A stretch of 64,000 nt of DNA. Source: Plantactinospora soyae (GTDB lineage Bacteria > Actinomycetota > Actinomycetes > Mycobacteriales > Micromonosporaceae). The stretch covers positions 2,604,001-2,668,000 of the forward strand of contig NZ_JADBEB010000001.1 of the NCBI RefSeq assembly GCF_014874095.1, in the 5' to 3' direction. The position numbers and the translations under genes were made by a program. The notes under the pieces were generated by a model that made no database searches, was not told the DNA's origin, and worked only from the letters and a program-made list of their open reading frames with translations. Numbering within the stretch: the stretch's first letter is position 1; every line of letters starts with the position of its first letter. Shown here one piece after another: positions 1,585 to 51,383 of this stretch.

Positions 1585-2715
1585 GTGTACCCCTCGACGC
1601 CACCGGAGACAGGTCGCGATTCCTGGCCGGACAACCGGCCCGGTCCGGCCGGCCCGCACCGTGCCCCGGACCCTCGCGGCCACCCCGCCGGTCCCGATCC
1701 CCGGGGCGGCCCCTTCGACGGTCCCCGGCCGTCCGACGGTTCCCGGCCGTCCGAGAGTCCGCGTCCGTCCGACGCACCGCGATCCGCCGGTGACCACCGG
1801 TCGACCGACGCCTCCCGGGCGGAGGCCGCCGCCCGGGCGGAAGCGGTCGGCGACCTGGACGAGCAGGACGACGACGAGGAGGAGTTGCCACCCGTACCGA
1901 TCCGTCGGCTGCTGTCGGTGGCGATCGCCGGGTTCGCCGGACTGGTCGGCGTCGGCCTGATCTTCGGGGCGCAGACCGCCGGCCCGGGTGCCCGACTGCC
2001 GTTCACCATGGTCGTCTTCGGCGTGCAGTTGCTGTTCATCCTGGCCTGGACGATGGCCACCCGCCCGCCCGCGTTGCTGCTGGTCGCGGGGGTGTCGGTC
2101 GCGGCTGCCGCCGCCGCCGACGCGGCCGCCGTACTGCCGGAGGTCGCCGCGCTCGGCCCGCTGGGGTACGTGGCCGCGGGTGCCCTGCTGGTCGGGGTGG
2201 TCGGTCAGCTCGTCCGGCGGGCCGACCGGGCCCGGGTAACCGAGTCGCTCGGCGCCACCCTGTTCATCGTGATCGGCGTCGTCTCGTTCGCGACCCTCAT
2301 CGTGCTCAGCCGGATCCCGGTGGGCACCCAGGCGATCATCGTCTGCCTCACCGCGACCGCGGTCGCGGTGACCGTCGCACGGCTGACCGACGCACTGCTG
2401 CCGTGGCCGAGACTGGCCCCGCAGGTGCCGCGCGGCGCGGCCGGCGTGGTGCTCGGGGCGATGCTCGGCACCCTGGCCGCCGCCATCCTCGGCAGCTACC
2501 TGGTCCCGATGACGCCGACCCGTGGCGCGGTGGTCGGGCTGGTCGCGGCGGCCGCTGCGGTGCTGGCCGACCTCGCGGTCGGCTACTCGGAGGCGGGCCG
2601 GCAGATGGCCGGCGAACCGCCGACGATGTGGGTCGCCCGGCACATGCAGGGCCCGCTCGGCGGATTCGCCCTGGCCGCACCGGCGGCCTACGCGATGAGC
2701 GTCTTCTTCCTGTAA
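1585..2715 (+). CDS. Integral membrane protein with acidic/Pro-rich cytoplasmic head
   Basis: 376 residues, divergent from glnR. The first ~110 residues are hydrophilic, rich in Pro, Ser, Asp and Arg, with short near-repeats of the type RPSDGSRPSESPRPSD and an acidic stretch (DEQDDDEEE). About nine to ten hydrophobic segments follow, to the C-terminal SVFFL. I do not recognise the family, and no enzymatic motif is visible. The GTG start at 1585 was chosen because no long open N-terminal extension is plausible upstream. CACGAT sits six bases before it, which fits a leaderless transcript. The stop codon forms the left end of a dyad repeat. Confidence 0.75.
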   Translation: MYPSTPPETGRDSWPDNRPGPAGPHRAPDPRGHPAGPDPRGGPFDGPRPSDGSRPSESPRPSDAPRSAGDHRSTDASRAEAAARAEAVGDLDEQDDDEEELPPVPIRRLLSVAIAGFAGLVGVGLIFGAQTAGPGARLPFTMVVFGVQLLFILAWTMATRPPALLLVAGVSVAAAAAADAAAVLPEVAALGPLGYVAAGALLVGVVGQLVRRADRARVTESLGATLFIVIGVVSFATLIVLSRIPVGTQAIIVCLTATAVAVTVARLTDALLPWPRLAPQVPRGAAGVVLGAMLGTLAAAILGSYLVPMTPTRGAVVGLVAAAAAVLADLAVGYSEAGRQMAGEPPTMWVARHMQGPLGGFALAAPAAYAMSVFFL

Positions 2716-2767
2716 GGAAGGGCCCCTTCTTATCGCTTTTTGTACAGGAAGGGCCCCTTCCTAACAC
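2713..2767 (+). repeat. GGGGCCC dyad repeat, copy A
   Basis: Two arms of the type AGGAAGGGCCCCTTC flank a T-rich loop (TATCGCTTTTTGTACA). Each arm is nearly self-complementary and the arms can also pair with each other. The repeat begins inside the stop codon of the upstream gene. Same family as the repeats at 26850, 35944 and 51321. Here it lies between two co-directional genes, so it may act as a terminator or mRNA 3' end stabiliser. Confidence 0.85.
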
Positions 2768-2867
2768 CGCCCGGGGGCCACGATTGGAGATGTGGCGCGT
2801 CGGGTAGATAGTGGTGCCGGTGACGGTGATCGACCGGCGTACCCGATTTCCGAGAAGAGGCGGCGGC

Positions 2868-3680
2868 GTGGCAGACAGCTATCCGGCAGACGGCGGGACG
2901 TACGGCGAACGGCCCCGTCGGCGCAGGGGCCGTCGGGCGCTCATCATCCTGATCATCCTTCTGCTCGTGCTGGGCGGCCTGCTCGTGATCGCCGACCGGG
3001 TCTCCGCCGGAATCGCCGAGCGGGTCGTCGCCGACCAGGTCGACCAGCAGCTCACCAAGCAGAACGTCCAGTCGTCGGCCCCCGAGGTGACCGTGGGCGG
3101 CTTTCCGTTCCTCACCCAGGTGCTGGGCGGCCGGTACGACTCGATCAACGTCGTGCTCCGGGATCTCCAGGGACCGGTCCAGGGCACCACCACCACGGTA
3201 CGGGTGCCGGAGCTGACGGCCGACGCCCGGAACGTCACCGCGTCGCTCGACACGCTGCGCACCGGCCAGGGCGAGGTCACCGCCGAGACGGTGCAGGGTA
3301 CGGCGACGGTCGCCTACGACAGCGTGGTCGCGCTGATCGACCGCCCCGGGGTGGAGCTGCGGGAGCAGGACGGCAAGCTGGCCGTCACCGCGCCGGTACG
3401 GGTGCCGATCCTGGAGCAGAACCTGACCGTACGGGGCACCGCGAAGCTGACCGTGCAGGGCACCGACATCGTCATCAACTTCGAGCGGCTGACCGCCGAC
3501 GACCTGCCGGACAACCCGGCGATCCAGTCCTTCATCTCCGCCTTCGCCCAGCAGCTCTCGGTCCGGGTGCCCCTGCCGGCGCTGCCGTTCGAGTTGGAGC
3601 TCCAGGAGGTGCGGCCGATGCCGAACGGACTGGCCGTGACGGGAAGCGCCCGTAACGTGTCGCTGAGTGAGGTCAGCTGA
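2868..3680 (+). CDS. DUF2993 (LmeA-like) phospholipid-binding membrane-anchored protein
   Basis: 270 residues: a short Arg-rich cytoplasmic head (RRRRGRR), one hydrophobic anchor (about 24-44, LIILIILLLVLGGLLVI), then an extracytoplasmic DUF2993 domain. The conserved opening runs VADQVDQQL...PEVTVGGFPFLTQVLGGRYD. Family knowledge: related to mycobacterial LmeA, a periplasmic phospholipid-binding factor that affects lipomannan maturation. The GTG start at 2868 is preferred over an ATG-like start at 2811 because AAGAGG lies seven bases upstream and it gives the usual N-terminus. Transcribed in the same direction as its upstream neighbour, from which repeat A separates it. Confidence 0.85.
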   Translation: MADSYPADGGTYGERPRRRRGRRALIILIILLLVLGGLLVIADRVSAGIAERVVADQVDQQLTKQNVQSSAPEVTVGGFPFLTQVLGGRYDSINVVLRDLQGPVQGTTTTVRVPELTADARNVTASLDTLRTGQGEVTAETVQGTATVAYDSVVALIDRPGVELREQDGKLAVTAPVRVPILEQNLTVRGTAKLTVQGTDIVINFERLTADDLPDNPAIQSFISAFAQQLSVRVPLPALPFELELQEVRPMPNGLAVTGSARNVSLSEVS

Positions 3681-3734
3681 TCCGGGGCGTGGACGGGTGA
3701 TCCCGGATCGTGGTCGGCGCTGGGTAACGGCTTA

Positions 3735-23176: not shown

Positions 23177-23650
23177 GTGGCAAACGGAGAAGTCCCGCTA
23201 GTGGTCTGCGTGTCCACGGACGTCGCGGTGCGGGAGCGAGTGGTTCGACGTCTGGACGACTTCGGTACCGTAGTGATCTGCGCGGATCTGTCCGAATTGC
23301 GGGCAATGCTGTTTCCACTGACCGGCAACGGCGCGGAATCGGAGTCCGGCCCGGTGAGCCTCGGTGACCTGTCGGTCGATCCGGGTGGACACCTGGTGAC
23401 CTGGCGCGGTGAACCCCTGGCGCTGACCAGGTTGGAGCGGGAACTGCTCGCCCGGCTGGCCAGTGCGCCACTCGGGGTGTGGACCTACGAGCGGCTGTTC
23501 GGGTCGGTCTGGGGCGGCGCCTACCTGGGCGACACCGCGATCCTGCATTCGGCCGTGAAGCGGCTGCGCCGGAAGCTGCGCGCCGTCGAGGGCGGACCGC
23601 AGGTGCAGACCGTGCGAGGGGTCGGCTACCGCCTCGCGCCAGGCCACTGA
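23177..23650 (+). CDS. Winged-helix (OmpR-type) regulator with degenerate receiver-like N-terminus
   Basis: 157 residues. The N-terminal ~45 (VVCVSTDVAVRERVVRRL) look like a shortened receiver without the phosphorylated Asp. The C-terminal ~95 form a Trans_reg_C winged helix (LTRLERELLARLASAPLGVW, AILHSAVKRLRRKLR, VQTVRGVGYRLAPG). The GTG at 23177 has a GGAG-rich region upstream. Divergent from the secreted protease, it is a candidate regulator of that gene. It cannot be a classical two-component regulator as it stands. Confidence 0.8.
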   Translation: MANGEVPLVVCVSTDVAVRERVVRRLDDFGTVVICADLSELRAMLFPLTGNGAESESGPVSLGDLSVDPGGHLVTWRGEPLALTRLERELLARLASAPLGVWTYERLFGSVWGGAYLGDTAILHSAVKRLRRKLRAVEGGPQVQTVRGVGYRLAPGH

Positions 23651-23776
23651 TCGACACGCCGCCTGGCGGAGGCCGTCCGGATCATTGATCGACGCGCTGC
23701 CGGGCGGAGACCGTCGGGACCACTGATCGACGCGCGGCCTGGCGGAGGTCGTCCGGATCGTTGATCGACGCGGGCC
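23645..23776. repeat. 38-bp tandem repeat, about 3.4 copies
   Basis: Units begin at 23645, 23683, 23721 and (partial) 23759 with the core TGATCGACRCG...GGCGGAGGCCGTCCGGA. The first unit overlaps the stop codon of the winged-helix gene (TGA is part of CACTGATCGA). Units differ at several positions, so the array is not recent. Confidence 0.85.
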
Positions 23777-26004: not shown

Positions 26005-26013
26005 CAACCCGTC

Positions 26014-26849: not shown

Positions 26850-26911
26850 AGAGGTGTTAGGAAGGGGCCCTTCTTCTACAGAAAACGATAGGAAGGGGCC
26901 CTTCCTTACAC
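26850..26911 (-). repeat. GGGGCCC dyad repeat, copy B (with 17-bp duplication at its left edge)
   Basis: AGAGGTGTTAGGAAGG...CTACAGAAAACGATA...GGAAGGGGCCCTTCC lies between convergent genes, in the opposite orientation to copy A. The minus-strand stop (TTA at 26906-26908) is inside it. Immediately left, 26822-26838 and 26839-26855 are a perfect 17-bp tandem copy that repeats the last codons and stop of the nitrobindin gene. Confidence 0.85.
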
Positions 26912-27809: not shown

Positions 27810-27815
27810 TTGTCG

Positions 27816-28247: not shown

Positions 28248-29356
28248 TCGACATCGCGGGTGCGGTGACGGTGGAGGCCATCGACGAGCAGACCCGGGAC
28301 CAGCCGGACCCGGAGCACGTGGCGGCGGGCGTACGCCCGGTGGCCGCGCACTACGGTGACCCGATGCGCGAGCAGCGACTGCTCGCCACCGAGGTCGGCC
28401 TGGTGGACCGGTCGCACCGGGGAGTGATCGCCGTACCCGGGCTGGAGCGGGCGAGCTGGCTGCACACCCTGACCAGTCAGCATCTGGCGCAACTCGCCGC
28501 CGGACAGGGCAGTGAACTGCTGGTTCTCTCCCCGCACGGGCACGTCGAGCAGCACGCCATGGTCGCCGAGGACGGCGAGACCACCTGGCTGGACACCGAG
28601 CCGGGCGCGACCGCCGGGCTGCTGACGTACCTGGAGAAGATGCGCTTCTTCACCCCGGTCGACCCCCGGGACGCGACCGCCGACTGGGCGCTGCTGTCGC
28701 TGGTGGGTCCGCGCGCGGCCGAGGCCGTCGCCGTGCTCGGGGTCTCCGGGCTGGCCGAACCGGACGCGCTCGGGGTGCCGGGTCCGAAGTTCGCCGCCGG
28801 CTCCGTGCCACCCCGCCCGAGCATCGTGTACGACGTGAAGCCGTTGCCGGCCGGAGGCTGGGCCCGTCGGGTCCGGCTCGGAATCGACCTGCTGGTGCCG
28901 CGTACCGCCATGGCGGAGGTGGTCGACACGCTGACCGCTGCCGGAACACCGGTCGCCGGGCTGTGGGCGTACGAGGCGCTGCGGGTGGCGGACCGGCTGC
29001 CCCGGGTCGGCTTCGAGACCGACCACCGGACCATTCCGGCCGAGGTCGGGCTGGTCGGTCCCGCCGTACACCTGGACAAGGGCTGTTACCGGGGGCAGGA
29101 GACGGTCGCCCGGGTGCACAACATGGGGCGTCCGCCGCGTCGGCTGGTACTGCTGCACTTCGACGGGGTGACCACCGACGAACTGCCCACCGTCGGTACT
29201 CCGGTGACCGTCGAGGGTCGTACGGTCGGGTTCGTCGGCACGGCGGTCCGGCACTACGAGTTGGGGCCGGTCGCGCTCGCGGTGCTCAAGCGGTCGGTGC
29301 CCGACGACGCGGCACTGACGGTCGGCAGCTCCGCCGCCGCCGTCGACCCGGAGTAG
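28244..29356 (+). CDS. ygfZ: YgfZ/GcvT-like folate-binding protein for Fe-S cluster maintenance
   Basis: 370 residues. The tetrahydrofolate-binding GcvT-like domain ends with the YgfZ signature KGCYRGQETVARVHNMG (K-G-C-Y-x-G-Q-E) near residue 280. Known role: folate-dependent repair or assembly of certain Fe-S enzymes, linked to MiaB in E. coli. The ATG at 28244 overlaps the fur stop, with GAGGAG seven bases upstream. Co-transcription with a Fur-family regulator suits a link to iron metabolism. Confidence 0.9.
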   Translation: MIDIAGAVTVEAIDEQTRDQPDPEHVAAGVRPVAAHYGDPMREQRLLATEVGLVDRSHRGVIAVPGLERASWLHTLTSQHLAQLAAGQGSELLVLSPHGHVEQHAMVAEDGETTWLDTEPGATAGLLTYLEKMRFFTPVDPRDATADWALLSLVGPRAAEAVAVLGVSGLAEPDALGVPGPKFAAGSVPPRPSIVYDVKPLPAGGWARRVRLGIDLLVPRTAMAEVVDTLTAAGTPVAGLWAYEALRVADRLPRVGFETDHRTIPAEVGLVGPAVHLDKGCYRGQETVARVHNMGRPPRRLVLLHFDGVTTDELPTVGTPVTVEGRTVGFVGTAVRHYELGPVALAVLKRSVPDDAALTVGSSAAAVDPE

Positions 29357-29357
29357 C

Positions 29358-29403
29358 GGCTCGGCGTATCGCCCGGCGTCGGCTCGGCGTATCGCCCGGC
29401 GTC
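29358..29403. repeat. 23-bp perfect tandem duplication
   Basis: Two perfect copies of GGCTCGGCGTATCGCCCGGC plus GTC (period 23) start two bases after the ygfZ stop. Non-coding. Confidence 0.85.
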
Positions 29404-29476
29404 GCGTGCGGGCGCGCCCGGCCGCGGGTGTTCGCCGGCCGGGCTGGGCGGAGCGGTCGGGGCTAGGATCGCCGGC

Positions 29477-30316
29477 ATGACGACTGGGACGCTGATCACG
29501 GTCGCGCCGACCGGCGCGGAGTCGGCGAAGCTGGAGGTCCCGGCGTTGCCGGTGACCCTCGACGAGCTGCTGCTCACGGCGAAGGAGTGCGAGGCGCTCG
29601 GCGCCGCCGTGATCCACGTGCACATCCGGGACGACCAGGCCCGCCCCACCCTCGATTCGGGCCGGTTGCGGGACACCGTCGCGGCGCTGCGGGACGGCAC
29701 CGACCTGATCGTGCAGCTCTCCACCGGGGGCGCGGTGACCGATCCGGAGACGGACCGGCTGGCCGTACTGGACGCCGGCCCGGAGATGGCCTCCTGCACG
29801 ATGGGTACGGTCAACTTCGGCAACGACGTCTTCCTCAACCGCTGGGAGTTCATCGTCGACCTGCACACCCGGATGCAGGACCGGGGCATCGTGCCCGAGT
29901 ACGAGATCTTCGACCTCGGTCACCTGACCGCACTGCACCGGCTGCTCGACCGGTACGGCCTGCCGGCCGGCGGGCACGTGCACGTCGACTTCGTGATGGG
30001 TGTACCGGGCGGCATGCCGGGCAGCACCGAGGCGCTGGTCGCCTGCCGGCAGGCGCTGCGGGACCTGCCGGAGGGGACCACCTTCTCGGCGACCGGGATC
30101 GGCCGGAGCACCATCCCGGTGATGCTCGCCTCGATCTCGACGGGCGGGCACCTGCGGGTCGGGATGGAGGACACCGTCACGTACGCCAAGGGGCGTCCGG
30201 TCGAATCCAACATGCAGTTGGTGGCCCGGGCGGTCGGGCTGGCGCAGTTGGCCCAGCGCCCGCCGTTGGGTACCGCGCAGGCGCGTGAACTGCTGGGACT
30301 CGCACCACAGCGCTAG
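29477..30316 (+). CDS. Beta-keto acid cleavage enzyme (BKACE, DUF849)
   Basis: 279 residues, a TIM-barrel enzyme of the 3-keto-5-aminohexanoate cleavage family. The zinc ligands are expected in AAVIHVHIRDD (HxH, about residues 48-50) and in EYEIFDLGHL. STGGAVTDPETDR and MGVPGGMPGS are other family blocks. Reaction: condenses a beta-keto acid with acetyl-CoA to give acetoacetate and a CoA ester. The exact substrate depends on pocket residues and cannot be read here. TAGGAT lies seven bases before the ATG, a leaderless start. A putative asparaginase follows in the same direction. Confidence 0.88.
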   Translation: MTTGTLITVAPTGAESAKLEVPALPVTLDELLLTAKECEALGAAVIHVHIRDDQARPTLDSGRLRDTVAALRDGTDLIVQLSTGGAVTDPETDRLAVLDAGPEMASCTMGTVNFGNDVFLNRWEFIVDLHTRMQDRGIVPEYEIFDLGHLTALHRLLDRYGLPAGGHVHVDFVMGVPGGMPGSTEALVACRQALRDLPEGTTFSATGIGRSTIPVMLASISTGGHLRVGMEDTVTYAKGRPVESNMQLVARAVGLAQLAQRPPLGTAQARELLGLAPQR

Positions 30317-30362
30317 GGGCCGTCGGGCGGTCGGTCCGCACCGGTCGGTACGGTCGCCGACC

Positions 30363-31352
30363 ATGGGCGAGATCTACGACGGCGGCGTACCGCTGGTGGA
30401 GGCGGTCCGGTCGGGCTTCGTGGAGTCCGTACACCGGGGTTCCGTGGTCGTGCTGGACGCCGACGGGGCGGTGGTGGCCTCGGCCGGCGACGTCCGGGCG
30501 CCGGTGTTCCCCCGTTCGTCGAGCAAGCCGATGCAGGCGATCGGCATGATCCGCTCCGGGCTGCGGCTGGCCGACCCGGCCGACCTGGCCGTGGTCTGCG
30601 CCAGCCACTACGGCGAGGACGTCCATCTGGCCCGGATCGAGGCGCTGCTCCGGACCACCGGGCTGGACGAGTCGGCGCTGCGCTGCCCGCCGGACATGCC
30701 GCTGTCCGAGGACGCCCGGGACGCGGTGCTCCGGGCCGGCGGTGCCGCCTCCCGGCTCCGGATGAACTGTTCCGGCAAGCACGTCGGGATGCTGCTCACC
30801 TGTCAGGCCGCCGGCTGGCCGGTGGCCGGGTACTGGCACCCGGACCATCCGTTGCAGCGGGCGATCACGGCGACCGTCGAGGAGTTCACCGGCGAGTCGG
30901 TGGCGGCGGTCGGGGTCGACGGCTGCGGCGCTCCGGTACTCGCGGTCTCGCTGACCGGGCTGGCCGGGGCGTACCTGCGGCTGGTATCGGCGGCGGAGGG
31001 TTCGGTGGAGCGGATCGTCGCCGACGCGATGCGGGCCCATCCGCTGATGGTGGCCGGCACCGACGGGGCCGACACCCAACTGATGACCGGGATCCCCGGA
31101 CTGCTCGCCAAGAGCGGCGCAGAGGGTGTGGTCGCGGTGGCGGTGCCCGGAGTCGGGGCGGTGGCGCTCAAGATCGATGACGGCGCGACCCGGGCCCGGA
31201 CGCCGGTACTGGTCTCGGCGCTGCGCCGGCTGTCGGTACGCGGGACGGCGCTGGACGCTCCGGTGCTCGACGCTCCGGTGCTCGACCTGCTGGCCGAGTC
31301 GACGCTGTCCGGTGGTGGCGAGCCGGTCGGCTCCGTACGCGCCCGCTGGTGA
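30363..31352 (+). CDS. L-asparaginase II-type protein
   Basis: 329 residues of the Asparaginase_II family (rhizobial/actinobacterial type, distinct from E. coli AnsB). Family motifs are RSSSKPMQAIG (about 50), CASHYGED (about 80), MNCSGKHVGML (about 137) and VDGCGAPV. It should hydrolyse L-asparagine to aspartate and ammonia in the cytoplasm. TACGGT is eight bases before the ATG. A 15-nt in-frame duplication near the end gives APVLDAPVLD. It follows the BKACE gene; a functional link is not evident. Confidence 0.87.
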   Translation: MGEIYDGGVPLVEAVRSGFVESVHRGSVVVLDADGAVVASAGDVRAPVFPRSSSKPMQAIGMIRSGLRLADPADLAVVCASHYGEDVHLARIEALLRTTGLDESALRCPPDMPLSEDARDAVLRAGGAASRLRMNCSGKHVGMLLTCQAAGWPVAGYWHPDHPLQRAITATVEEFTGESVAAVGVDGCGAPVLAVSLTGLAGAYLRLVSAAEGSVERIVADAMRAHPLMVAGTDGADTQLMTGIPGLLAKSGAEGVVAVAVPGVGAVALKIDDGATRARTPVLVSALRRLSVRGTALDAPVLDAPVLDLLAESTLSGGGEPVGSVRARW

Positions 31353-31418
31353 CCCTCGGGCGGGTGGGCCCGTCGATGTCCTCCCGAAGCACGCCACGCT
31401 GAGACATCGCTAACTATC

Positions 31419-31445
31419 GCAAGCGTTTTGCTTGCAGGAGCAAGC
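31419..31445 (+). promoter_or_regulatory. Alternating GCAAGC/GCTTGC arms in front of the XRE regulator
   Basis: GCAAGC (31419-31424), GCTTGC (31430-31435) and GCAAGC (31440-31445) can form two overlapping inverted repeats (spacers 5 and 4 nt). They lie just upstream of the TACCGT -10 (31455-31460) of the XRE gene. A likely operator for autoregulation. Confidence 0.6.
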
Positions 31446-31467
31446 GCGGGTCGCTACCGTCGATGTC

Positions 31468-32160
31468 ATGGCCAATCCGAAGGACCTTCCCCGAGACGTC
31501 GGTGGGTTCATCCGTGACCTGCGCCGTAACGCCAAGATCTCGCTGCGGCAGCTGGCCGAGCAGGCCGGGGTCAGCAACCCGTACCTGAGCCAGATCGAGC
31601 GTGGGCTGCGAAAGCCCAGCGCGGAGGTGCTCCAGCAGTTGGCCAGCGCCCTGCGCGTCTCCACCCCGGTGATGTACCTCCGGGCCGGGCTGCTCGACGA
31701 CCGGGAGGGTCAGGGCGTGCTCGCGGCCATCGCGGCCGATCCCGATCTCACCATGCCGCAGAAGCAGTCGCTGGCCCAGATCTACGAGACGTTCCGCCGG
31801 GAGAACCTCCGGCACACCGAGCCGGGCGGCCCCGAAGATGCCGGCGTCGCCGAACCGTTCGGCACCACGACCGGACCGAGCACGCCGGCCGGCGCCACCG
31901 CTTCGGCGGGTGCCGGCACACCGGTCAGCGCCACCGCCCCGGCGGGCGGCGGTGCCGGGTCACCGGTCGACGCCGTACTCGAATCCGTGGCGGTGACCGA
32001 GGCGGGCGCCGCCGCCGCGCCGCCGACCAGCCCGCCGGCCGGCGTGGATGCCGCGTCCACGCCGAAGCCCGCACCCGTGAAGAAGATCGCCAAGAAGGCG
32101 GTCAAGAAGGCCACGCCGTCGGCCCCGCCGGCCGCCCCGGCCACTGACGAGGAGAAGTAG
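31468..32160 (+). CDS. XRE-family regulator with Ala/Pro-Lys-rich tail (Rv0474-type)
   Basis: 230 residues. HTH_3 domain spans about 10-65 (GFIRDLRRNAKISLRQLAEQ, SNPYLSQIERGLRKPS). A helical region to about 115 follows, then a long low-complexity Ala/Thr/Pro segment ending in a Lys-rich stretch (VKKIAKKAVKKA). It is the homologue of M. tuberculosis Rv0474, just ahead of hbhA. The tail echoes the Lys/Ala repeats of HbhA and may bind nucleic acid or polyanions. TACCGT is seven bases before the ATG, a leaderless start. A 2-nt gap to the next gene makes an operon. Confidence 0.85.
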   Translation: MANPKDLPRDVGGFIRDLRRNAKISLRQLAEQAGVSNPYLSQIERGLRKPSAEVLQQLASALRVSTPVMYLRAGLLDDREGQGVLAAIAADPDLTMPQKQSLAQIYETFRRENLRHTEPGGPEDAGVAEPFGTTTGPSTPAGATASAGAGTPVSATAPAGGGAGSPVDAVLESVAVTEAGAAAAPPTSPPAGVDAASTPKPAPVKKIAKKAVKKATPSAPPAAPATDEEK

Positions 32161-32162
32161 TC

Positions 32163-32831
32163 ATGAGCGAGCCCCGAACGACCCGCATCCCCACCCCGCT
32201 CTACGCCGTGGCCGGCGCCGGAGACATCGCCTTCCAGCAGCTCCGCCGGCTGCCCGCCGTGGTGAACGGGCTCAGCGACGAGGCCAGCCGGACCGAACTG
32301 CGGGACAAGGCGGCGGCGACCACCGCCGAACTGCGCGAGAAGGCCGTGGCGACCACCGCCGAGCTGCGCGAGAAGGCCGTAGTGACGCTGCGCAACGCCA
32401 ACTCCGGCGCCGCGACCCTGCGGCACCGCGCGGCCAACGGCGAGCTGGACCTCGACCGGCTGCGCGAGGCGACCATCCGGAACGCGGCAGTGGTGGTGGC
32501 CGGCGCCCAGGCAGCCCAGGAGCGGGCCCTCGCCGTCTACGGCGACCTGGTCGCCCGAGGCGAGCGGGTGGTCGGTTCCGGCGTCGTACAGGCCGCCGAC
32601 ACCGTGAACGCCGACATGGAGGCGACCGAGCCGCCGGCGGTGACCGCCACCCCGGCCAGCAGCACCCCGGCCGAGGTCGTCGAGCAGATCAAGGCGCCCG
32701 CCGCCGCGAGCACCGCCGAACCGGCCAGCACCGGCGACGAGCCCACCAAGGCTTCCGCCGTGAAGCGCCGGCCCGCGGTCAAGTCGACCCGGCCGGCCGC
32801 CAAGCGCACCCGGCCGGCAACCGACAAGTAA
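32163..32831 (+). CDS. hbhA: HbhA-like heparin-binding hemagglutinin homologue
   Basis: 222 residues. The N-terminal helix-rich part matches HbhA (PLYAVAGAGDIAFQQLRRLP, then a long coiled coil). It carries a perfect tandem 11-residue repeat ATTAELREKAV (32316-32348 and 32349-32381), a hendecad as seen in lipid-binding helices. The C-terminus is Ala/Pro-rich and basic (VKRRPAVKSTRPAAKRTRPA), shorter than the Lys-Pro tail of mycobacterial HbhA. In mycobacteria the protein acts in lipid-body or cell-surface adhesion; in a soil actinomycete the role is probably polar growth or lipid binding. It sits between the XRE gene and DUF2516, the same order as in M. tuberculosis. Confidence 0.8.
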   Translation: MSEPRTTRIPTPLYAVAGAGDIAFQQLRRLPAVVNGLSDEASRTELRDKAAATTAELREKAVATTAELREKAVVTLRNANSGAATLRHRAANGELDLDRLREATIRNAAVVVAGAQAAQERALAVYGDLVARGERVVGSGVVQAADTVNADMEATEPPAVTATPASSTPAEVVEQIKAPAAASTAEPASTGDEPTKASAVKRRPAVKSTRPAAKRTRPATDK

Positions 32832-32901
32832 GCCCCCGGCCACCCCCGGGTGGGTGCGGCAAGTGGCACGCACCCGGGGTGGCCGACATAAGCTTGCCGC
32901 C

Positions 32902-33216
32902 ATGGCCACTTCCGCGCCGCTCTTCTTCGACGCCGTCCGCTCTGTCATCGACCTGGTGCTGATCGTCTTCGCCCTGGTGATCCAGGGTGTCGCGCTCGTG
33001 CACTGCATCACCCAGCGCTCGGACGCATTCCCCGCGATCGGCACGCTCCCCAAGGGAGCCTGGATCGCCATCCTGGCCGTGTGCCTGGTGCTGACCCTGC
33101 TGCTGCGTGGGCCGATCAGCCTGTTCGCCCTGATCGGGATCGCCGCCGCCCTGATCTACCTGCTCGACGTCCGGGTCGGCCTGCGGGACCTGACCGACGG
33201 CAAAGGCTTCTGGTGA
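32902..33216 (+). CDS. DUF2516 membrane protein (Rv0476-type)
   Basis: 104 residues with three hydrophobic segments (about 12-34, 50-66 and 68-86). The DUF2516 features are LVLIVFALVIQGVALVHCI, FPAIGTLPKGAWIAIL and LDVRVGLRDL. It is the third member of the Rv0474-hbhA-Rv0476 cluster. TAAGCT lies seven bases before the ATG. It overlaps the hydrolase gene by 4 nt (GTGA). Function unknown. Confidence 0.88.
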   Translation: MATSAPLFFDAVRSVIDLVLIVFALVIQGVALVHCITQRSDAFPAIGTLPKGAWIAILAVCLVLTLLLRGPISLFALIGIAAALIYLLDVRVGLRDLTDGKGFW

Positions 33217-34097
33217 GAGATTTCCGCTGGCCTCCGCCACCTGACGGCGGGCCACGGACGTACGGCCCCGGACCGACCGCGCCACGCAGCGGCCGGCCGG
33301 CTCTGCCCGACCCGGAGACCGAACTGGTCACCACCCCGCACGGCGTCCGGCTGGAGCGACTGGTGACCGGCGAGGGCGACGCGGCCACCGTGTTCGCGCA
33401 CGGCCTCGGCACCGGCATCTCCACCACCCGACCCCTGGGCAGCGCGGTCGCCGGTCGCAAGATCTTCTTCCAGTTCCGTGGCCACGGCCGCTCCGACGCG
33501 CCGGACGGCGAATGGAGCTACGCCGACCTCGCCCGGGACCTGCGAGCCATCGCCGACCTGGGCGGCGCCACCCGGGCACTCGGGGTGAGCCTCGGCGCGG
33601 GGGCGCTCTGCCGGGTGCTGTGGGAGAGTCCCGAGCGCTTCGAACGGGTGGTGTTCGTGCTGCCCGCCGTACTCGACGAGCCCCGGCCGGACGTGACGCG
33701 ACGCCGGCTCACCGAACTCCTCGCCGCGATCCGCAGCGGCGACGCCGCCACCGTGGCCGAGGCGGTCGCCGTCGAGGTGCCCCCGGCGGTCCGGAACACC
33801 CCGGCGGGTTGGGCGTACCTGCGCCAGCGGGTCGACCAGTTGACCCGGGACGGCCTCGGCGCCGGGCTGGCCGGCCTGGCCACCCAGGTCGCGGTCCGGC
33901 AGCGGGCGGACCTCGCCGCCGTCACCGCCCCCGCGCTGGTGATCGCCTGTGCCGGCGACGACCTGCATCCGGTCCCGGTCGCCGAGCAGCTCGCCGCCGC
34001 GTTGCCGGCGGCGACCCTGCACGTGTACGACAAACCGGGGCTGCTCTGGTCGAACCGCGCCGACGTACGCGAGCGGATCTCGAACTTCCTCAACTGA
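33213..34097 (+). CDS. Alpha/beta hydrolase-fold protein lacking an obvious catalytic His
   Basis: 294 residues. The oxyanion region VFAHGLGTGI, the HGRS block (FRGHGRSDAP), nucleophile Ser in LGVSLGAG and the acid in IACAGDDLHP are present. The usual C-terminal GH is missing, because the last helix follows DKPGLLWSNR directly. Either the His lies elsewhere (DLHP) or the protein is a non-enzymatic member. The GTG overlaps the DUF2516 stop by 4 nt, with translational coupling likely. Confidence 0.8.
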   Translation: MRDFRWPPPPDGGPRTYGPGPTAPRSGRPALPDPETELVTTPHGVRLERLVTGEGDAATVFAHGLGTGISTTRPLGSAVAGRKIFFQFRGHGRSDAPDGEWSYADLARDLRAIADLGGATRALGVSLGAGALCRVLWESPERFERVVFVLPAVLDEPRPDVTRRRLTELLAAIRSGDAATVAEAVAVEVPPAVRNTPAGWAYLRQRVDQLTRDGLGAGLAGLATQVAVRQRADLAAVTAPALVIACAGDDLHPVPVAEQLAAALPAATLHVYDKPGLLWSNRADVRERISNFLN

Positions 34098-34171
34098 TCC
34101 CGCCCGACCCGGGTCCGGCGGTGGTGCCGCCGTGCCCCCAGCGTCGATGGGTCGGAGTAACCTGGCGCTCC

Positions 34172-34909
34172 ATGGGCGTTTCTCAGCACGGCCGGACCAG
34201 TCGCCTCGACCTCGCCGACCCGACACTGCGGCAGTGGGAGTGCACGGTGCTCGCCGCCGATCCGGAACAGGGGATCGTGCTGGACCGCTCGGCGTTCTAC
34301 CCCGGTGGCGGCGGCCAGCCACCGGACCACGGAGTGCTGCTCTGGCAGGGCGTGCAGACCCGGATCGTCGGCACCCGCAAGGGCGACGACCTCTACCTGA
34401 TCCCGGCCGACGGTGATCCGCTGCCGCCGGTCGGTACGGCGGTCACCGGCGCGGTGGCCGACGATCGGCGCAGCCTGCTGATGCGTACCCACTCCGGTCT
34501 GCACGTGCTCTGCGGCGTGGTGTTCCGGGACTTCGGTGCCCTCGTCACCGGCGGCAACATGGAACCCGGCGAGGCACGGATGGACTTCAACCTGCCGGAG
34601 GTCCCGTCGGACTTCAAAGCCCGGCTGGAGGAACTGGTCAACACCGAGGTGACCGCCGACCGGGCGGTCGCGGTCAAGGTGCTGGCCCGGGACGAGGCGT
34701 TGGCGCTGCCGGACATCATCCGTACCCAGTCCAACCTGATCCCGGCAGACGAGCAGGAGATCCGGATCGTCGACATCGTCGGGCTCGACGTGCAGGCCGA
34801 CGGCGGTACCCACGTCGCCTCGACCGCGCAGATCGGCAAGGTGCAGGTGGTCAAGGTGGAGAGCAAGGGTCGGGCCAACCGCCGGGTACGCGTCCGGCTG
34901 GTCAACTGA
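34172..34909 (+). CDS. Alanyl-tRNA editing protein (AlaX-type deacylase)
   Basis: 245 residues with both zinc half-sites of the AlaRS editing domain: HSGLH (HxxxH, about 110) and DGGTHV near 210. Other family blocks are FYPGGGGQPPDHG and NLPEVP. In many members the second half-site is CGGTH; here Asp precedes GGTH, a variant I have also seen in AlaX. Role: hydrolyses Ser- or Gly-mischarged tRNA(Ala) in trans. TAACCT precedes the ATG by eight bases. It stands alone after the hbhA cluster. Confidence 0.88.
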   Translation: MGVSQHGRTSRLDLADPTLRQWECTVLAADPEQGIVLDRSAFYPGGGGQPPDHGVLLWQGVQTRIVGTRKGDDLYLIPADGDPLPPVGTAVTGAVADDRRSLLMRTHSGLHVLCGVVFRDFGALVTGGNMEPGEARMDFNLPEVPSDFKARLEELVNTEVTADRAVAVKVLARDEALALPDIIRTQSNLIPADEQEIRIVDIVGLDVQADGGTHVASTAQIGKVQVVKVESKGRANRRVRVRLVN

Positions 34910-35021
34910 CCGCGTAGAGCACCGCCGTCCCCCCAACTGAGACGCCCGCCACGTACGCGATCGGATGTCGACCGGTGAATCCGGACGTCGGCTGTCAGAA
35001 TTCGTTGGCAGGGTCGGCGGT

Positions 35022-35939
35022 ATGACGACAGCACAACTGACCGGAAAGATCGCACTCGTCGCCGGGGCCACCCGGGGCGCCGGCCGACAGATCGCCGTCC
35101 AACTCGGCGCCGCCGGAGCGACCGTGTACGCCACCGGACGCAGCACCCGCAAACAGCGCTCGGAGATGGACCGGCCGGAGACGATCGAGGAGACCGCCGA
35201 ACTGGTCACCGCGGCCGGCGGGGTCGGAATCGCGGTGCAGGTCGACCACCTGGTGCCGGAGCAGGTCCGGGCCCTCGTCGAGCGGATCGACCGGGAGCAG
35301 GGGCGGCTCGACGTACTGGTCAACGACGTGTGGGGGGCCGACCCGTTCATCGGGTGGTACAAGCCGGTCTGGGAGCAGTCGCTGGACGACGGTTTCCGTA
35401 CGCTCCGGCTGGCCGTCGACACCCACATCATCACCAGCCACTTCGCGATGCCACTGCTGATCCGCAACCCGGGCGGCCTGGTCGTCGAGATGGGTGACGG
35501 CACCCGGGAGTACAACGAGACCAACTACCGGCTCTCGGCCTTCTACGACATCGCCAAGACGGCGGTGAACCGGCTGGCATTCGTCTGGGCGCACGAACTG
35601 CGCGACCACGGCGGTACGGCGGTGGTCCTCACCCCGGGCTGGCTGCGCTCCGAGTTCATGCTCGACGAGTTCGGCGTCACCGAGGAGAACTGGCGGGACG
35701 CGGCGGAGAAGGAACCGCACTTCGTCGTCTCGGAGAGCCCCGCGTACGTCGGCCGGGCGGTCGCGGCACTGGCCGCCGACCCGGACAAGGCCCGCTGGTC
35801 CGGCCAGTCCCTCTCCAGCGGTCAACTCGCCCAGGTGTACGGCTTCACCGACCTCGACGGCAGCCAGCCGGACGCCTGGCGGTACATGGCGGAGGTACAG
35901 GCCACCGGCAAGCCCGCCGACGCCACCGGCTACCGGTAG
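35022..35939 (+). CDS. SDR-family oxidoreductase
   Basis: 305 residues. The Rossmann motif GATRGAGR (about 15), catalytic Tyr and Lys in FYDIAKTAV and a long C-terminal extension with FTDLDGSQPDAWRY are present. A VNDVWG block replaces the usual NNAG. This pattern occurs in SDRs annotated as putative short-chain dehydrogenases with unknown substrates. The ATG at 35022 follows a weak GGCAGGG. It ends in dyad repeat C, convergent with a WYL regulator. Confidence 0.85.
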   Translation: MTTAQLTGKIALVAGATRGAGRQIAVQLGAAGATVYATGRSTRKQRSEMDRPETIEETAELVTAAGGVGIAVQVDHLVPEQVRALVERIDREQGRLDVLVNDVWGADPFIGWYKPVWEQSLDDGFRTLRLAVDTHIITSHFAMPLLIRNPGGLVVEMGDGTREYNETNYRLSAFYDIAKTAVNRLAFVWAHELRDHGGTAVVLTPGWLRSEFMLDEFGVTEENWRDAAEKEPHFVVSESPAYVGRAVAALAADPDKARWSGQSLSSGQLAQVYGFTDLDGSQPDAWRYMAEVQATGKPADATGYR

Positions 35940-35943
35940 AGAT

Positions 35944-36003
35944 GCAAGGAAGGGCCCCTTCCTATCGTTTTCTGTAGAAGAAGGGGCCCTTCCTAACACC
36001 TCA
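35944..36003 (+). repeat. GGGGCCC dyad repeat, copy C
   Basis: It has the same orientation as copy A, loop TATCGTTTTCTGTAGA, between convergent genes. The right end overlaps the stop codon of the WYL regulator (TCA at 36001). Confidence 0.85.
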
Positions 36004-36969
36004 GTGGGCGTACAGCTCGGCGAGGCGGTGTGCTGCCGTCGCCAGGCGGGCCCGGAGCTGCGGTGGTGCGAGTACCTCCACCTCGGGGCCGAGACTGAGC
36101 AGTTGGCCGTACGCGACGTCGGGCGACTCGACGGGCAGCCGGATGACCACCCAGCCCCGCTCGTCGGGTTCGCCGGCGTTCGCCTCGGCCTCCCGGACGG
36201 CGGGCGCCTCGGCGACGTACCGCAGGGCGTGCCGGCCGGCCGGACTGAGTCGTACCGTGATCTCGTCGCCGAGGATCTCCCGGACGAACCGTTCGGCCTG
36301 GTCGGCCCAGTAGCCGGCAAGGTCGAACGACTCGTCGCGGCTGAACGTGGCGTCCGCCTCCTCGACCCCGACGATCCGGTCGACCCGGTAGGTGCGATGG
36401 TTCGCGCCGACGCGGGCGACCAGGTACCACCCGCCACCCTTGAGCACCAGCCCGTACGGCTCGACGGTCCGGCTCACCTCCCGGTCCCGCCTGCGGTAGC
36501 GCAGGTTCACCGTCCGGTCCTGCCACACCGCCTGGGCCAGTTCGGTCAGCCAGACCGGTGGATCCGCCTCCCGGAACCAGCCCGGTACGTCGAGATGGAA
36601 CCGCCGCTCCACTCGGGTCGAGGCGTCCCGTAATCCGCTCGGCAGCGCGGCGAGCACCTTCAACCGGGCGGTCGCCACCACCTCGGCCAGGCCCATCTCG
36701 CCGGCCGGGCCGGGCAGGCCGGACAGGAAGAGCGCGTCGGCCTCGTCCCGGCTCAGCCCGGTCAGCCGGGTCCGGTACCCGCCGACCAGCCGGTAGCCGC
36801 CGGCCCGGCCCCGATCGGCGTAGACGGGGATGCCGGCGGCACCGAGCGCCAACACGTCCCGGTAGATCGTCCGCTCCGAGACCTCCAGCTCGCGGGCCAG
36901 TTCGGCACCGGTCATCGACTCCCGGTTCTGTAGCAGCAGGATCAGGGAGATCAGCCGGGCGGCGCGCAT
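36001..36969 (-). CDS. WYL-domain transcriptional regulator
   Basis: 322 residues. HTH_11 domain spans about 3-55 (MTGAELARELEVSERTIYRD, ADRGRAGGYRLVGGY). A WYL domain spans about 140-215 (VEPYGLVLKGGGWYLVARV, then YRVDRIVGVEE), and a WCX-type C-terminal extension follows. WYL proteins sense ligands or nucleic acids in the cytoplasm. The ATG at 36969 is preferred because the longer frame upstream is a low-complexity extension. Convergent with the SDR gene. Its target is unknown. Confidence 0.88.
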   Translation of the reverse strand: MRAARLISLILLLQNRESMTGAELARELEVSERTIYRDVLALGAAGIPVYADRGRAGGYRLVGGYRTRLTGLSRDEADALFLSGLPGPAGEMGLAEVVATARLKVLAALPSGLRDASTRVERRFHLDVPGWFREADPPVWLTELAQAVWQDRTVNLRYRRRDREVSRTVEPYGLVLKGGGWYLVARVGANHRTYRVDRIVGVEEADATFSRDESFDLAGYWADQAERFVREILGDEITVRLSPAGRHALRYVAEAPAVREAEANAGEPDERGWVVIRLPVESPDVAYGQLLSLGPEVEVLAPPQLRARLATAAHRLAELYAH

Positions 36970-37078
36970 CCTCCCATCCTGCCCGGCAGCGGATCCGCGT
37001 CGTCGCCCCGCACCCGACCGACCGGATGTCGCGCCGTCGTCATGCCGGGTGCCGCGCTCCCCGATAGGCTTCCCGGTC

Positions 37079-45204: not shown

Positions 45205-45729
45205 ATGGGATCCCGGGCCGAGATCGGCCGGCTGATCGAGTCGGTCTGTGCCGAGCGGGAGTTGGCTTGCGAGTCGACGGGCGAGTTCTCGTACGCCGTC
45301 ACGCTGCCGGGTACGCACAAGCTCAAGACGGTCTGCAACCTGATCGTCGGTGAGCACGCGCTCCGGGTCGAGGCGTTCGTGATGCGGCAGCCGGACGAGC
45401 GGCGCGAGGAGCTCTGGACCTGGCTGTTGCAGCGCAACGCCCGGATGTACGGGGTGGCGTTCTCCGTCGACGCGGTCGGCGACATCTACCTCACCGGCCG
45501 GGTGGGGCTGTCCGGGGTGCACGAGGACGAGTTGGACCGGTTGTTCGGCTCGGTGCTGACGTACGCGGACGAGTCGTTCGACACCATGCTGGAGATCGGG
45601 TTCGGTTCGGCGATCCGTCGCGAGTGGGAGTGGCGGGTGAAGCGGGGGGAGTCCCTGGCGAACCTGCGGGCCTTCGCGCACCTCTTCGAGCGGTCGGCGG
45701 TGGAAAACTCGGATTTGGACCGTCCCTGA
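45205..45729 (+). CDS. YbjN-domain protein (Rv0487-type)
   Basis: 174 residues. The YbjN fold is related to type III secretion chaperones: VCAERELACESTGEFSYAV, AFVMRQPDERREELWTWLLQ and GVHEDELDRLFGSVLTYADE. The ATG at 45205 has AAAGG eight bases upstream. It follows mshA by 25 bp, so co-transcription is probable. Function not established; homologues affect stress and motility genes in enterobacteria. Confidence 0.88.
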   Translation: MGSRAEIGRLIESVCAERELACESTGEFSYAVTLPGTHKLKTVCNLIVGEHALRVEAFVMRQPDERREELWTWLLQRNARMYGVAFSVDAVGDIYLTGRVGLSGVHEDELDRLFGSVLTYADESFDTMLEIGFGSAIRREWEWRVKRGESLANLRAFAHLFERSAVENSDLDRP

Positions 45730-45815
45730 CGGGTATGCCCCCGCGGCGGCACCCGCACGTAGCGATGACCGTGCCGCCTACCGAGGACAGACCGGGTAGG
45801 GAGCGTGAGGATCTC

Positions 45816-47189
45816 ATGGTCCAACGGAACAGTTCCGGTCGCGGCGCGACCGCGACCGCCACGAGGCGCCGAGCCAGCAGTATGGGCGAGGTCGACGAGG
45901 GAAAGATCGGCTCCATGAAGGCCGACGACATCCGGGGGCAGCTCCGCAAGCGCGGCATTTCGGGCATATCCGCGCTTCGCAAGATGGACCTGGTGAAGAG
46001 CCTGGTCCGGACCCTACGGGCGGAGAGCCGAGGCGGCACCGCCGGCAAGAGGGCGAACGCGTCGCCGACCAAGCGGGTGAGCGCGTCGGCGTCCAAGCGG
46101 ACCAGCGCGTCGGCATCCAAACGGGTGAGCGCGTCGGCGTCCAAGCGGACCAGCGCGTCGGCGTCCAAGCGGGCGCCGGCCAAGAAGGCCACGGCCAAGA
46201 AGGCGCCGGCCAAGAAGGCCACGGCGAAGAAGGCCCCGGCCAGGACGGCCGCCGCGAAGAAGGCGCCGGCCCGGAAGACCGTGGCGGCCGCGCGCAAGAC
46301 GACCGGGGCGCGTAGGACGGCCACCGCGTCGGTCCGGAAGGCGACCGGGACGCGCAAGAGCACCACGGCCGCGCGCAAGACGACCGGAGCGCGCAAGTCC
46401 AGCACCGCGCCGGCCCGAAAGGCGCCCGGGGGCCGGGCCACCGGAACGCGCAAGACGACCGCCAGCGCGGCTCGGAAGACGTCGGGGACCCGTGCGACCG
46501 GAGCCCGGAAGAGCACCACCGCGGCCCGGAAGAGCACCGGGTCGAGCCGGACGACCACCGCCACGGTCCGGAAGGCGGCGGGGGCGAGCGCGGGTACTAC
46601 CGGTACCTCCGCTCGGAAGGCCACCGCAGCCGGCAAGAGCACGACGGCTGCCGCGCGCAAGAGCTCCACGGCTCCGGCGCGCAAGAGCTCCACGGCATCC
46701 GCGCGCAAGAGTGCGACGGCTCCGGCGAAGAAGAGCGGCGCCGCCCGGAGCGCCACGAAGACGGCGAAGGCCACCGGCGGGGCACGATCCTCGGGCGGAG
46801 CGCGAAAGGCCGCGTCGACCGGAGGCGGCGGCAGCGGGCAGTCCAAGTCCCTGAAGTACGCCCAGCCGATCTCCTCGCCGCAGGATCAGCCCGAGCGGCC
46901 GGGGCGGAGCCTGGTGACCCGGGAACACGACGTCATCCGGCGCTGGGCCGAGGGCCGAAACGCCCAACCGGCGACAATCGAGGGCACCGAGCGCGAAGGT
47001 CGACTCGGCGTACTGACGTTTGACTTCCCCGGTTGGCGGGAAGGCGGACGACTGAAGCCGGTTAGCTGGGACGAGTGGTTCCACACGTTCGACCTGCGCG
47101 GGCTGAACTTCATTTACCAGGAGCAGCTTTCCGACGGACGGCAGAGCAACTTCTTCCGTACCGAATCGCCGGATCGCGAGGATGGGTGA
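45816..47189 (+). CDS. Rho-N/SAP-like plus histone H1-like Lys-rich protein with a C-terminal conserved domain
   Basis: 457 residues in three parts. The N-terminal SAP/Rho-N-like domain (about 25-65) contains SMKADDIRGQLRKRGISGIS and MDLVKSLVRTL. The middle (about 70-350) is a low-complexity Lys/Ala/Ser/Thr segment with SASASKR and KKATAKKAPA repeats, like eukaryotic histone H1 or mycobacterial HupB tails. The C-terminal ~80-residue domain has HDVIRRWAEGRNAQPA, LGVLTFDFPGW, SWDEWFHTFD and RGLNFIYQE, a block also found alone in small proteins. Likely a DNA- or RNA-binding nucleoid protein. The ATG at 45816 has GAGGA upstream. It lies 86 bp behind ybjN. Confidence 0.85.
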   Translation: MVQRNSSGRGATATATRRRASSMGEVDEGKIGSMKADDIRGQLRKRGISGISALRKMDLVKSLVRTLRAESRGGTAGKRANASPTKRVSASASKRTSASASKRVSASASKRTSASASKRAPAKKATAKKAPAKKATAKKAPARTAAAKKAPARKTVAAARKTTGARRTATASVRKATGTRKSTTAARKTTGARKSSTAPARKAPGGRATGTRKTTASAARKTSGTRATGARKSTTAARKSTGSSRTTTATVRKAAGASAGTTGTSARKATAAGKSTTAAARKSSTAPARKSSTASARKSATAPAKKSGAARSATKTAKATGGARSSGGARKAASTGGGGSGQSKSLKYAQPISSPQDQPERPGRSLVTREHDVIRRWAEGRNAQPATIEGTEREGRLGVLTFDFPGWREGGRLKPVSWDEWFHTFDLRGLNFIYQEQLSDGRQSNFFRTESPDREDG

Positions 47190-50361: not shown

Positions 50362-50504
50362 CCGGCCGCCCCCCGTCCGGTAATGACCATTTGTTCTTGG
50401 ATTCCTTACGAAGCTAGTCGGCCGGGTCCCGCCCGGTCATCCGTTTTTCCACGTGTCGGTCGTCACCCTGGGTCGCCGCATGCCTGCTCGGCGGTTCCGG
50501 CAGG

Positions 50505-51317
50505 ATGATGCGCATGACTGCGAGCACGAGGACTGGGCCGGAAGGATCCACGGTGGCGGGCGAGGGAGCCGCGGTGGGCACGTTGGTGCTGCTCCGACAC
50601 GGCGAAAGCGACTGGAACGCCAAGAATCTCTTCACCGGCTGGGTCGACGTGGACCTCACGGCCAAGGGCGAGAGCCAGGCCCGGCGCGGCGGCGAGCTGC
50701 TGCGCGAGCACGACCTGCTGCCCGACGTACTGCACACCAGCGTGCTGCGCCGGGCGATCCGTACCGCCGAACTGGCCCTGAACGCCGCCGACCGGCAGTG
50801 GATCGCGGTACGCCGGTCCTGGCGGCTCAACGAGCGGCACTACGGCGCCCTACAGGGCAAGGACAAGAAGCAGACCCTGGCCGAGTACGGCGAGGAGCAG
50901 TTCATGCTCTGGCGCCGGTCGTACGACACTCCGCCGCCACCCATCGCGGACGGCGACGAGTGGTCCCAGGCCGGTGACCCGCGCTACGCCCTGCTCCCGC
51001 CCGAGCTGATGCCGAAGACGGAGTGCCTGAAGGACGTCGTCGACCGGATGCTGCCGTACTGGTTCGACTCGATCGTCCCGGACGTCCTGGCCGGCCGGAC
51101 CGTACTGGTCGCCGCGCACGGCAACTCGCTGCGGGCCCTGGTCAAGCACCTCGACGGCGTCTCCGACGAGGCGATCGCCAAGCTCAACATCCCGACCGGC
51201 ATCCCGCTGCGCTACGACCTCGACCGGTCGATGCGTCCGCTGGTGACCGGCGGCGCCTACCTCGACCCCGATGCTGCCAAGGAGGCCGCCGCCGCGGTCG
51301 CCAACCAGGGCCGCTAG
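50505..51317 (+). CDS. gpm: 2,3-bisphosphoglycerate-dependent phosphoglycerate mutase
   Basis: 270 residues. The catalytic His is in RHGESDWN (about residue 32). [31 protein letters not shown] and [13 protein letters not shown] complete the dPGM active site. It interconverts 3- and 2-phosphoglycerate in glycolysis. Three ATG codons stand at 50505, 50508 and 50514; AGG precedes the first and a start at 50514 is equally possible. It lies between mshA and senX3-regX3, the same order as in M. tuberculosis and Streptomyces. It ends next to dyad repeat D. Confidence 0.92.
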
Positions 51318-51320
51318 CTC

Positions 51321-51383
51321 AGAGGTGTTAGGAAGGGCCCCTTCTTCTACAGAAAACGATAAGAAGGGGCCCTTCCTTGCACT
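51321..51383 (-). repeat. GGGGCCC dyad repeat, copy D
   Basis: It has the same orientation as copy B (AGAGGTGTTAGGAAGG, then CTACAGAAAACGATA, then AAGAAGGGGCCCTTCC) between the convergent gpm and phoU genes. It reaches the phoU stop codon within 1 nt. Confidence 0.85.

Follow-up and report, generated by a model that had tools for sequence, protein, structure and literature searches.

A 64,000-nucleotide stretch of Plantactinospora soyae DNA (hereafter the window; C1:2604001-2668000 of the one-contig chromosome of 9,715,930 bases) carries four copies of a short palindromic repeat at 2713, 26850, 35944 and 51321, here called A to D. Across this 9.7 Mb chromosome the repeat has at least 145 family members, most of those placed lying at gene ends. 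Judging from its sequence, we consider it likely that the family is a dispersed set of intrinsic terminators, built like the repetitive extragenic palindromes (REPs) of other bacteria and polar in its placement, at which transcription is predicted to end. The copy number, position, polarity and folding potential of the repeat, its sharing of sites with relatives and the alternative hairpins at their junctions are established directly by the DNA.

Results

Placement and polarity at gene ends

For placement and alignment we used 114 copies, the first 100 listed of 145 matches to the CGATA half of the unit together with 14 copies of a stricter pattern, a set that under-samples the second half of the chromosome and in which every copy has an intact CGATA-side half by selection. 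Genes were called with a small 4-mer codon-type gene finder trained on the window, so that stops should be sound and starts are rough. Fifty-six copies lie between convergent genes, 50 at tandem junctions, 5 at divergent ones and 3 inside a called frame. Among the 111 copies with two called neighbours, the 56 convergent ones compare with 8.0% of intergenic bases and 14% of junctions, and the 5 divergent ones with 41% of intergenic bases; the null consists of the element-free intergenic bases of the same DNA stretches, and the window alone gives similar values (10% convergent, 41% divergent). A preliminary description of the window had suggested a dispersed gene-end family, and both the genome-wide count and the positions relative to stop codons strongly support it; placement regardless of gene ends is not what we see.

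Where a gene end faces the element, the distance from its core to the stop codon is most commonly 1 nt (31 cases) or 8 nt (28 cases), and the two ends of the unit, named GTAA and GTTA after their outermost bases, are not equivalent. A stop lies within 12 nt of the GTAA end in 82 of 91 cases, compared with 28 of 71 at the GTTA end (Fisher p 5e-12), and in convergent pairs, in which both ends face a gene, the figures are 54/56 and 22/56. The element itself contains the stop codon (distance 1) in 30 of those 91 GTAA-end cases, as TAA 29 times and as TGA once. At tandem junctions the upstream stop is within 20 nt in 44 of 50 copies, the downstream start lies a median of 90.5 nt away, and the upstream gene reads the U-rich strand of the loop in 35 of 50. 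Of thirty copies from three other genera (loci L183-L212), 14 are convergent and 11 tandem, with 2 at divergent junctions and 3 within a frame, and 9 of the 11 tandem copies are in the T-rich orientation; the asymmetry of the ends is weaker there (stop within 12 nt at 13/23 GTAA ends vs 3/16 GTTA ends).

Copy number and anatomy of the unit

The four window copies are real and were grouped as one family by a repeat search, and their orientation (A and C one way, B and D the opposite way), their junctions (B, C and D convergent, A tandem) and their contact with stop codons (inside the unit at A and B, a few nucleotides from it at C and D) agree with the preliminary description. Allowing up to one mismatch, AAGGGGCCCTT matches the window 16 times (8 sites, each found on both strands), whereas 100 dinucleotide-shuffled sequences average 0.50 matches. 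Over the whole genome the exact pair GAAGGGSCCCTTC-N(8-30)-GAAGGGSCCCTTC occurs 121 times, while the half CGATAR-GAAGGGSCCCTTCC and the outer arms plus TATCG with the inner arms left free each occur 145 times; reversed versions of the family patterns have no match in the whole P. soyae genome. Of the 297 single half-sites, 242 fall in the 121 exact pairs and others belong to pairs in which one half is altered, so a large pool of unpaired sites is not apparent. The chromosomal distribution is uneven: C1:5167543-8501799, about a third of the chromosome, holds only 4 of 47 strict-pattern copies, and 100 of the 145 CGATA-half matches lie below 4.79 Mb.

The unit measures about 54 nt (GTTA-GGAAGGGSCCCTTC-18 nt-GAAGGGSCCCTTCC-TTAC) and consists of two odd palindromes of 13-15 nt, set head to head at a fixed distance and also foldable as one long hairpin. 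The core spans exactly 44 nt in all 50 listed of the 121 exact pairs and in the 47 copies of the stricter pattern, and the loop is therefore fixed at 18 nt. Across the 114 aligned copies conservation begins abruptly at G-T-T-A and stops at C-T-T-(A/G)-C-A, leaving only a weak TGAGGTG remnant outside the unit. Each base of the left tag GTTA is kept in 110-112 copies, the right end reads GTAA, GCAA or similar, and the unit ends GTTAGG and CCTTAC form an imperfect inverted repeat. With the copies set in the T-rich orientation, palindrome 1 is centred on C in 109 of 114, and palindrome 2 on C in 62 and on G in 52. Read from the GTAA end, the first palindrome is followed by UUAUCGYUUUYUGU, which is U-rich on this strand only.

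When five RNA strands of copies A-D were folded, each formed a single long hairpin of -30 to -42 kcal/mol (z -3.3 to -6.7), the long form of the fold described previously. Three compensated arm types, CGC/GCG (in the related genome G113), TTG/CAA and TTA/TAA, favour the long hairpin; many of the changed inner arms are one-sided, which bears on the choice between the long hairpin and two short ones.

The same junctions in relatives

Flanks of about 39 of 42 junctions drawn (4290/4620 nt), from 102 eligible, were searched in relatives. In the sister species (G104) the family motif stands at 22 of 24 paired junctions; the two exceptions, copy C and 3993680, have more than 1 kb of other sequence there, and at junction 596948 the G104 copy sits farther away. 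At the site of copy C (L060, G104:C263) this other sequence amounts to ~1.3 kb with an open frame of ~400 codons that looks WD-repeat-like by eye. Such common sites suggest that copies were inherited where they stand and have not moved recently. The loops point the same way: for the 18 of the 24 paired junctions that could be read in register, orthologous loops agree at 16.2 of 18 positions compared with 14.9 of 18 for non-orthologous ones (0/5000 permutations), as expected if copies were inherited in place. Two of these 18 pairs have the copy inverted in place.

At 7 of the 18 pairs the loop-edge base beside TATCG is C in P. soyae and T in G104, never the opposite, and no listed G104 copy has TTCCTATCG. 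As far as these sequences tell, members of the family change in step with one another within a species; the loop-edge C, which lengthens the half palindrome, may have its source in hairpin-templated correction or gene conversion.

Outside G104 there were 41 junction/genome pairs, of which 1 was dropped for length, 9 carry the family and 31 do not. Fourteen of these 31 element-less orthologous junctions fold with z < -2, compared with 1 of 60 control windows, which were taken from G032 loci and assumed to be coding; an element-less G113 site at 193285 has a hairpin followed by TTTT. Junction D, between phoU and a histidine phosphatase gene, carries family members or close variants in G104, G113, G032 and G078, and a different perfect or near-perfect hairpin at the same place in G092 and G058. 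The phoU junction was compared in 80 named Micromonosporaceae. A gap that could be called and reached 20 nt is present in 76 of them, and 76/76 fold to a minimum free energy of -30 kcal/mol or below, a cut set without a shuffle control and reached trivially by a few long gaps; 23 of the 76 species have a AGGAAGGG-type motif and 53 have other hairpins. Four Micromonospora loci (L239, L244, L253 and L257) show three palindromes in a row at this junction, resembling an array of bacterial interspersed mosaic elements (BIMEs). Copy A is present in G104 and absent from G092, G058 and G032; copy B is present in G078 and absent from G032, G113, G092 and G058; copy C is absent from G032, G113, G092 and G104.

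At two genes the repeat has, by comparison of these sequences, evidently replaced the last codons. The aminotransferase beside copy B ends in LLGFEV in P. soyae and G078, its last codons GAG GTG and the stop being repeat sequence, and in LLG(F/Y)P... in G032, G113, G092 and G058, which have no repeat there. The phoU product ends in ETQV in G113 and G032, where the gene runs into the repeat, and in ETVTD in P. soyae, G092 and G058.

Carriage is patchy, with 47 of 300 genomes of the bacterial family positive by the strict pattern and a range of 0-121 copies within the genus. The strict pattern undercounts (15 vs 66 by a looser pattern in G113, 16 vs 36 in G078); by the looser pattern P. soyae has 145 copies, G104 68, G113 66, G078 36 and three congeners 0. 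Single half-sites number 297 in P. soyae, 231 in G104, 46 each in G078 and G113, and 1, 2 and 2 in the congeners G058, G032 and G092. A small phoU+gpm tree places P. soyae with G104 and, weakly (0.63), G113 with G032. As G032 has no copy by either pattern, its one divergent variant at D apart, this weak pairing suggests fast gain or loss.

The four copies of the window

Copy A (2712..2765, minus strand) has its GTAA end at 2712 and its T-rich loop strand on the plus strand. It lies at a tandem junction, and the TAA at 2713-2715 inside the unit is the stop of the plus-strand gene ending at 2715. Its half palindromes occupy 2717..2729 (GAAGGGCCCCTTC, GTAA side) and 2748..2760.

Copy B (26856..26909, plus strand) lies at a convergent junction with its GTAA end at 26909. 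Inside the unit, the minus-strand TAA at 26906-26908 ends the Aminotran_4 gene, which also takes its final two codons from the repeat flank, and on the other side a THAP4_heme-bd gene ends with TGA at 26831-26833. The GTTA-side half palindrome spans 26861..26873; the GTAA-side half hairpin (26890..26906, minus strand) is followed on that strand by ATCGTTTTCT in a terminator-like arrangement. A 17-nt direct duplication (cggcggctgagaggtgt twice, 26824-26857) precedes this copy and takes in the left gene's stop codon, and short flank duplications are also seen beside the repeat in G113 at 607080 and in G104 at 1245863.

Copy C (35944..35997, minus strand), likewise convergent, has a GCAA end at 35944. 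On this side a short-chain dehydrogenase gene stops with TAG at 35937-35939, the core beginning 9 nt past the stop, and at the other end a WYL/HTH regulator gene stops with a minus-strand TGA at 36001-36003, 8 nt off. Its GTAA-side half hairpin (35947..35963, plus strand) is again followed by ATCGTTTTCT, here on the plus strand and again terminator-like, and the second half palindrome lies at 35980..35992.

Copy D (51327..51380, plus strand), the third convergent copy, has a GCAA end at 51380, with the core 8 nt from the minus-strand TGA of phoU (51384-51386); at its other end the histidine phosphatase gene ("gpm" by inference) stops with TAG at 51315-51317, 14 nt off. The half palindromes lie at 51332..51344 (GTTA side) and 51363..51375 (GTAA side). 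Placement is thus asymmetric in A, B and D, in which the GTAA or GCAA end is nearer a stop (1, 1 and 8 nt, counted from the 44-nt core), while in C the distance at the GCAA end is 9 nt vs 8 nt at the opposite end.

Two other repeats were seen in the window. Positions 46046-46728, within a plus-strand frame at 45624-47189, consist of dense tandem repeats of Lys/Ala-type codons, which bring to mind histone-H1-like or HU tail repeats; positions 23644-23791 hold a 38-bp tandem repeat with three overlapping matches at 82% identity. An Rfam search of the window at the gathering threshold gave no match.

Discussion

We propose that either RNA strand of the unit would fold into one long GC-rich hairpin and that transcription would end at the copies. 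For a transcript entering from the GTAA end, the first palindrome would fold once transcribed and be followed by the U-rich run, the ordinary layout of an intrinsic terminator, so that this first hairpin and the U-rich loop would be the active part and the GTAA end would be expected directly behind the stop of the gene served. In about one third of GTAA-end cases the stop of the gene presumably served is inside the element. At convergent junctions the second gene would meet the same long hairpin from the opposite side. Copies would have spread in the past by some copying route and would now mostly be inherited at fixed junctions, sometimes flipping in place; other lineages have unrelated hairpins at the same junctions.

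The preliminary description had proposed a bidirectional terminator. Its terminator part gains indirect support from the position and orientation of the copies, the folding of the tested strands and the unrelated hairpins at relatives' junctions. The bidirectional part is partly upheld by the near symmetry of the long hairpin and its frequent convergent setting, whereas the polar placement and the confinement of the U-rich stretch to one strand speak against it. A more specific version, in which the repeat is a one-sided gene-end cassette with a stop-supplying end and a directional terminator whose first half is active, and which spreads as a cassette, flips and drifts together within a species, is a tentative suggestion that we hold to be possible and somewhat short of probable.

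Several observations weigh against a family of terminators. Simple avoidance of genes and promoters would likewise leave copies at gene ends. Scanning 26000-37000 for terminator-like patterns gave 3 sites where shuffles lead one to expect 1.8, a count that is not significant in itself; two of the three lie in copies B and C. Covariation is weak: among 13 distinct inner arms with a changed TTC/GAA, 6 keep all three pairs vs 3.3 when shuffled, a value reached by 152 of 2000 shuffles. When the unit is folded as the long hairpin, 57 of the 114 copies have a mismatch between the two centres; pairing is therefore not strictly maintained. Finally, no significant fold is present at 17 of the 31 junctions that lack the element in relatives, and the element-less convergent junctions of P. 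soyae itself are less structured, with 6 of 28 at z < -2 (5 of 37 for divergent ones); thus a hairpin is not universal at such junctions.

In the first alternative the repeat is a selfish element, akin to REPs or miniature inverted-repeat transposable elements, that inserts anywhere, is spared by purifying selection where it falls behind stops and terminates transcription as a side effect. An asymmetric loop common to non-homologous sites is as this alternative would have it, and since such sites share their loop sequence the copies arose by copying, so that past dispersal is evident. The overwriting of the last codons of the aminotransferase gene and of phoU also favours it, as do the patchy carriage (47/300 genomes, 0-121 copies within the genus) and the likeness of the head-to-head palindromes and repeat-supplied stops to published REPs (the available part of PMC3733652). 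Selection against damage, however, leaves the polarity (82/91 vs 28/71) unexplained, and the sites common with the sister species are held by descent.

Over the 114 copies the longest word common to both flanks averages 5.07, compared with 5.12 in shuffled flanks, so that no target-site duplication is seen, though one might be masked where the flanks are old. The copy at 2502178 is bordered left and right by TGACCA, an apparent duplication that does not exceed what shuffled flanks give. Of 228 core sides, 1 is directly abutted by a perfect tandem duplication, which is close to the control rate of 0.0037; this test passes over duplications that stop short of the core by a few bases, as at copy B. 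The transposase domain Y1_Tnp (PF01797) has 0 matches in the P. soyae genome and, when the lists were crossed by eye, was found in 10 of 47 carriers vs 74 of 253 non-carriers, which is no enrichment. Mobilisation of the IS200 type or by REP-associated tyrosine transposases (RAYTs) is therefore unsupported in present genomes. No autonomous partner element was found via PF01797, the one family searched for, and copy D has no match in plasmid or phage collections. Of the mobile miniature element proposed earlier, past dispersal stands, and neither a target-site duplication nor a link to Y1 or RAYT does; on present evidence mobility holds for the past only. Taken together, we regard a purely selfish element as unlikely and retain a family of polar terminators that spread in the past.

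The exact spacing, near-invariant palindromes and variable outer flanks could also mark two half-sites for a putative DNA-binding or chromosome-organising protein that is tolerated only at gene ends. This seems very improbable to us, as it explains neither the loop strand that follows gene direction (35/50, and 9/11 in the other genera) nor the unrelated hairpins at the same junctions, and three congeners manage without the element. In E. coli, REPs behind stop codons form hairpins that stabilise mRNA 3' ends. That the long, strongly folding GC-rich hairpin found here right behind stops is such a barrier to 3' exonucleases instead of a terminator is more improbable still in our view. The other observations made here fit both roles, the one-sided U-rich loop favours termination, and the two may operate together.

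If terminators they are, the copies provide a natural panel of more than 100 near-identical candidates in a high-GC actinomycete, and their polarity yields a sharp prediction for transcript 3' ends. The family also bears on the means by which REP-like repeats spread when no transposase is evident, and on any terminator role they may have. As it is dense in P. soyae and nearly absent in three close relatives, which have unrelated hairpins at some of the junctions, terminator replacement could be traced site by site.

Comparison with known systems

Judged by titles and abstract openings, none of the papers listed in searches on repeats, REPs, terminators and Micromonosporaceae reports such a family, and three 12-nt core strings do not occur in the literature searched. 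The words "actinobacteria" and "Micromonospora" are absent from PMC3733652, as is "Micromonospora" from the accessible part of the RepRanger survey PMC12306157. According to the former, REPs are short high-copy palindromes, often in head-to-head pairs, that lie at convergent or tandem junctions, fewer than 20 bp away from stops, sometimes supply the stop codon and are patchy across species. The P. soyae repeat, a short high-copy intergenic palindrome near 3' ends, is thus nearest in kind to REPs and BIME head-to-head dimers (the GTAG and CGTC super-families), as far as these are covered there, in its palindrome pairing, gene-end position and stop supply. It differs in its tag, which is GTTA/GTAA and not the GTAG or CGTC of those super-families, in the fixed 18-nt loop (50 listed of 121 copies), in a genome that has no Y1/RAYT transposase, and in its polar placement and one-strand U-rich loop.

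The family also shares with intrinsic terminators a stable GC-rich hairpin at the 3' ends of genes. M. tuberculosis reportedly has a dispersed, near-identical intrinsic-terminator hairpin at gene ends, TRIT, said to have been described with RNIE by Gardner et al. in 2011, a parallel that we draw from this description and not from sequence or structure. TRIT is named in the available part of PMC3526491. In Streptomyces clavuligerus, on the portion of the Term-seq study at hand, a U-rich tract behind a GC-rich hairpin marks the efficient terminators, strong hairpins poor in U can also bring transcripts to an end, and bidirectional 3' ends occur; these terminators form a structural class, in contrast to the repeated sequence family seen here (PMC8269248). 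For Bacillus, the accessible text of PMC5381666 reports that terminators common to convergent genes are more conserved than one-way ones.

A repeated word whose inverted pairs give a gene-end hairpin is also found among DNA uptake sequences. In Neisseria and Haemophilus, inverted pairs of these sequences form gene-end terminators; unlike uptake sequences, the P. soyae repeat has no evident large pool of single sites. Uptake-sequence terminators are mentioned, without naming those genera, in the available part of PMC2267715. The polarity of the P. soyae repeat is a trait that we did not meet in the parts of the literature on such elements consulted here, and within the same scope the family combines the spread of a REP with what would be the work of a terminator.

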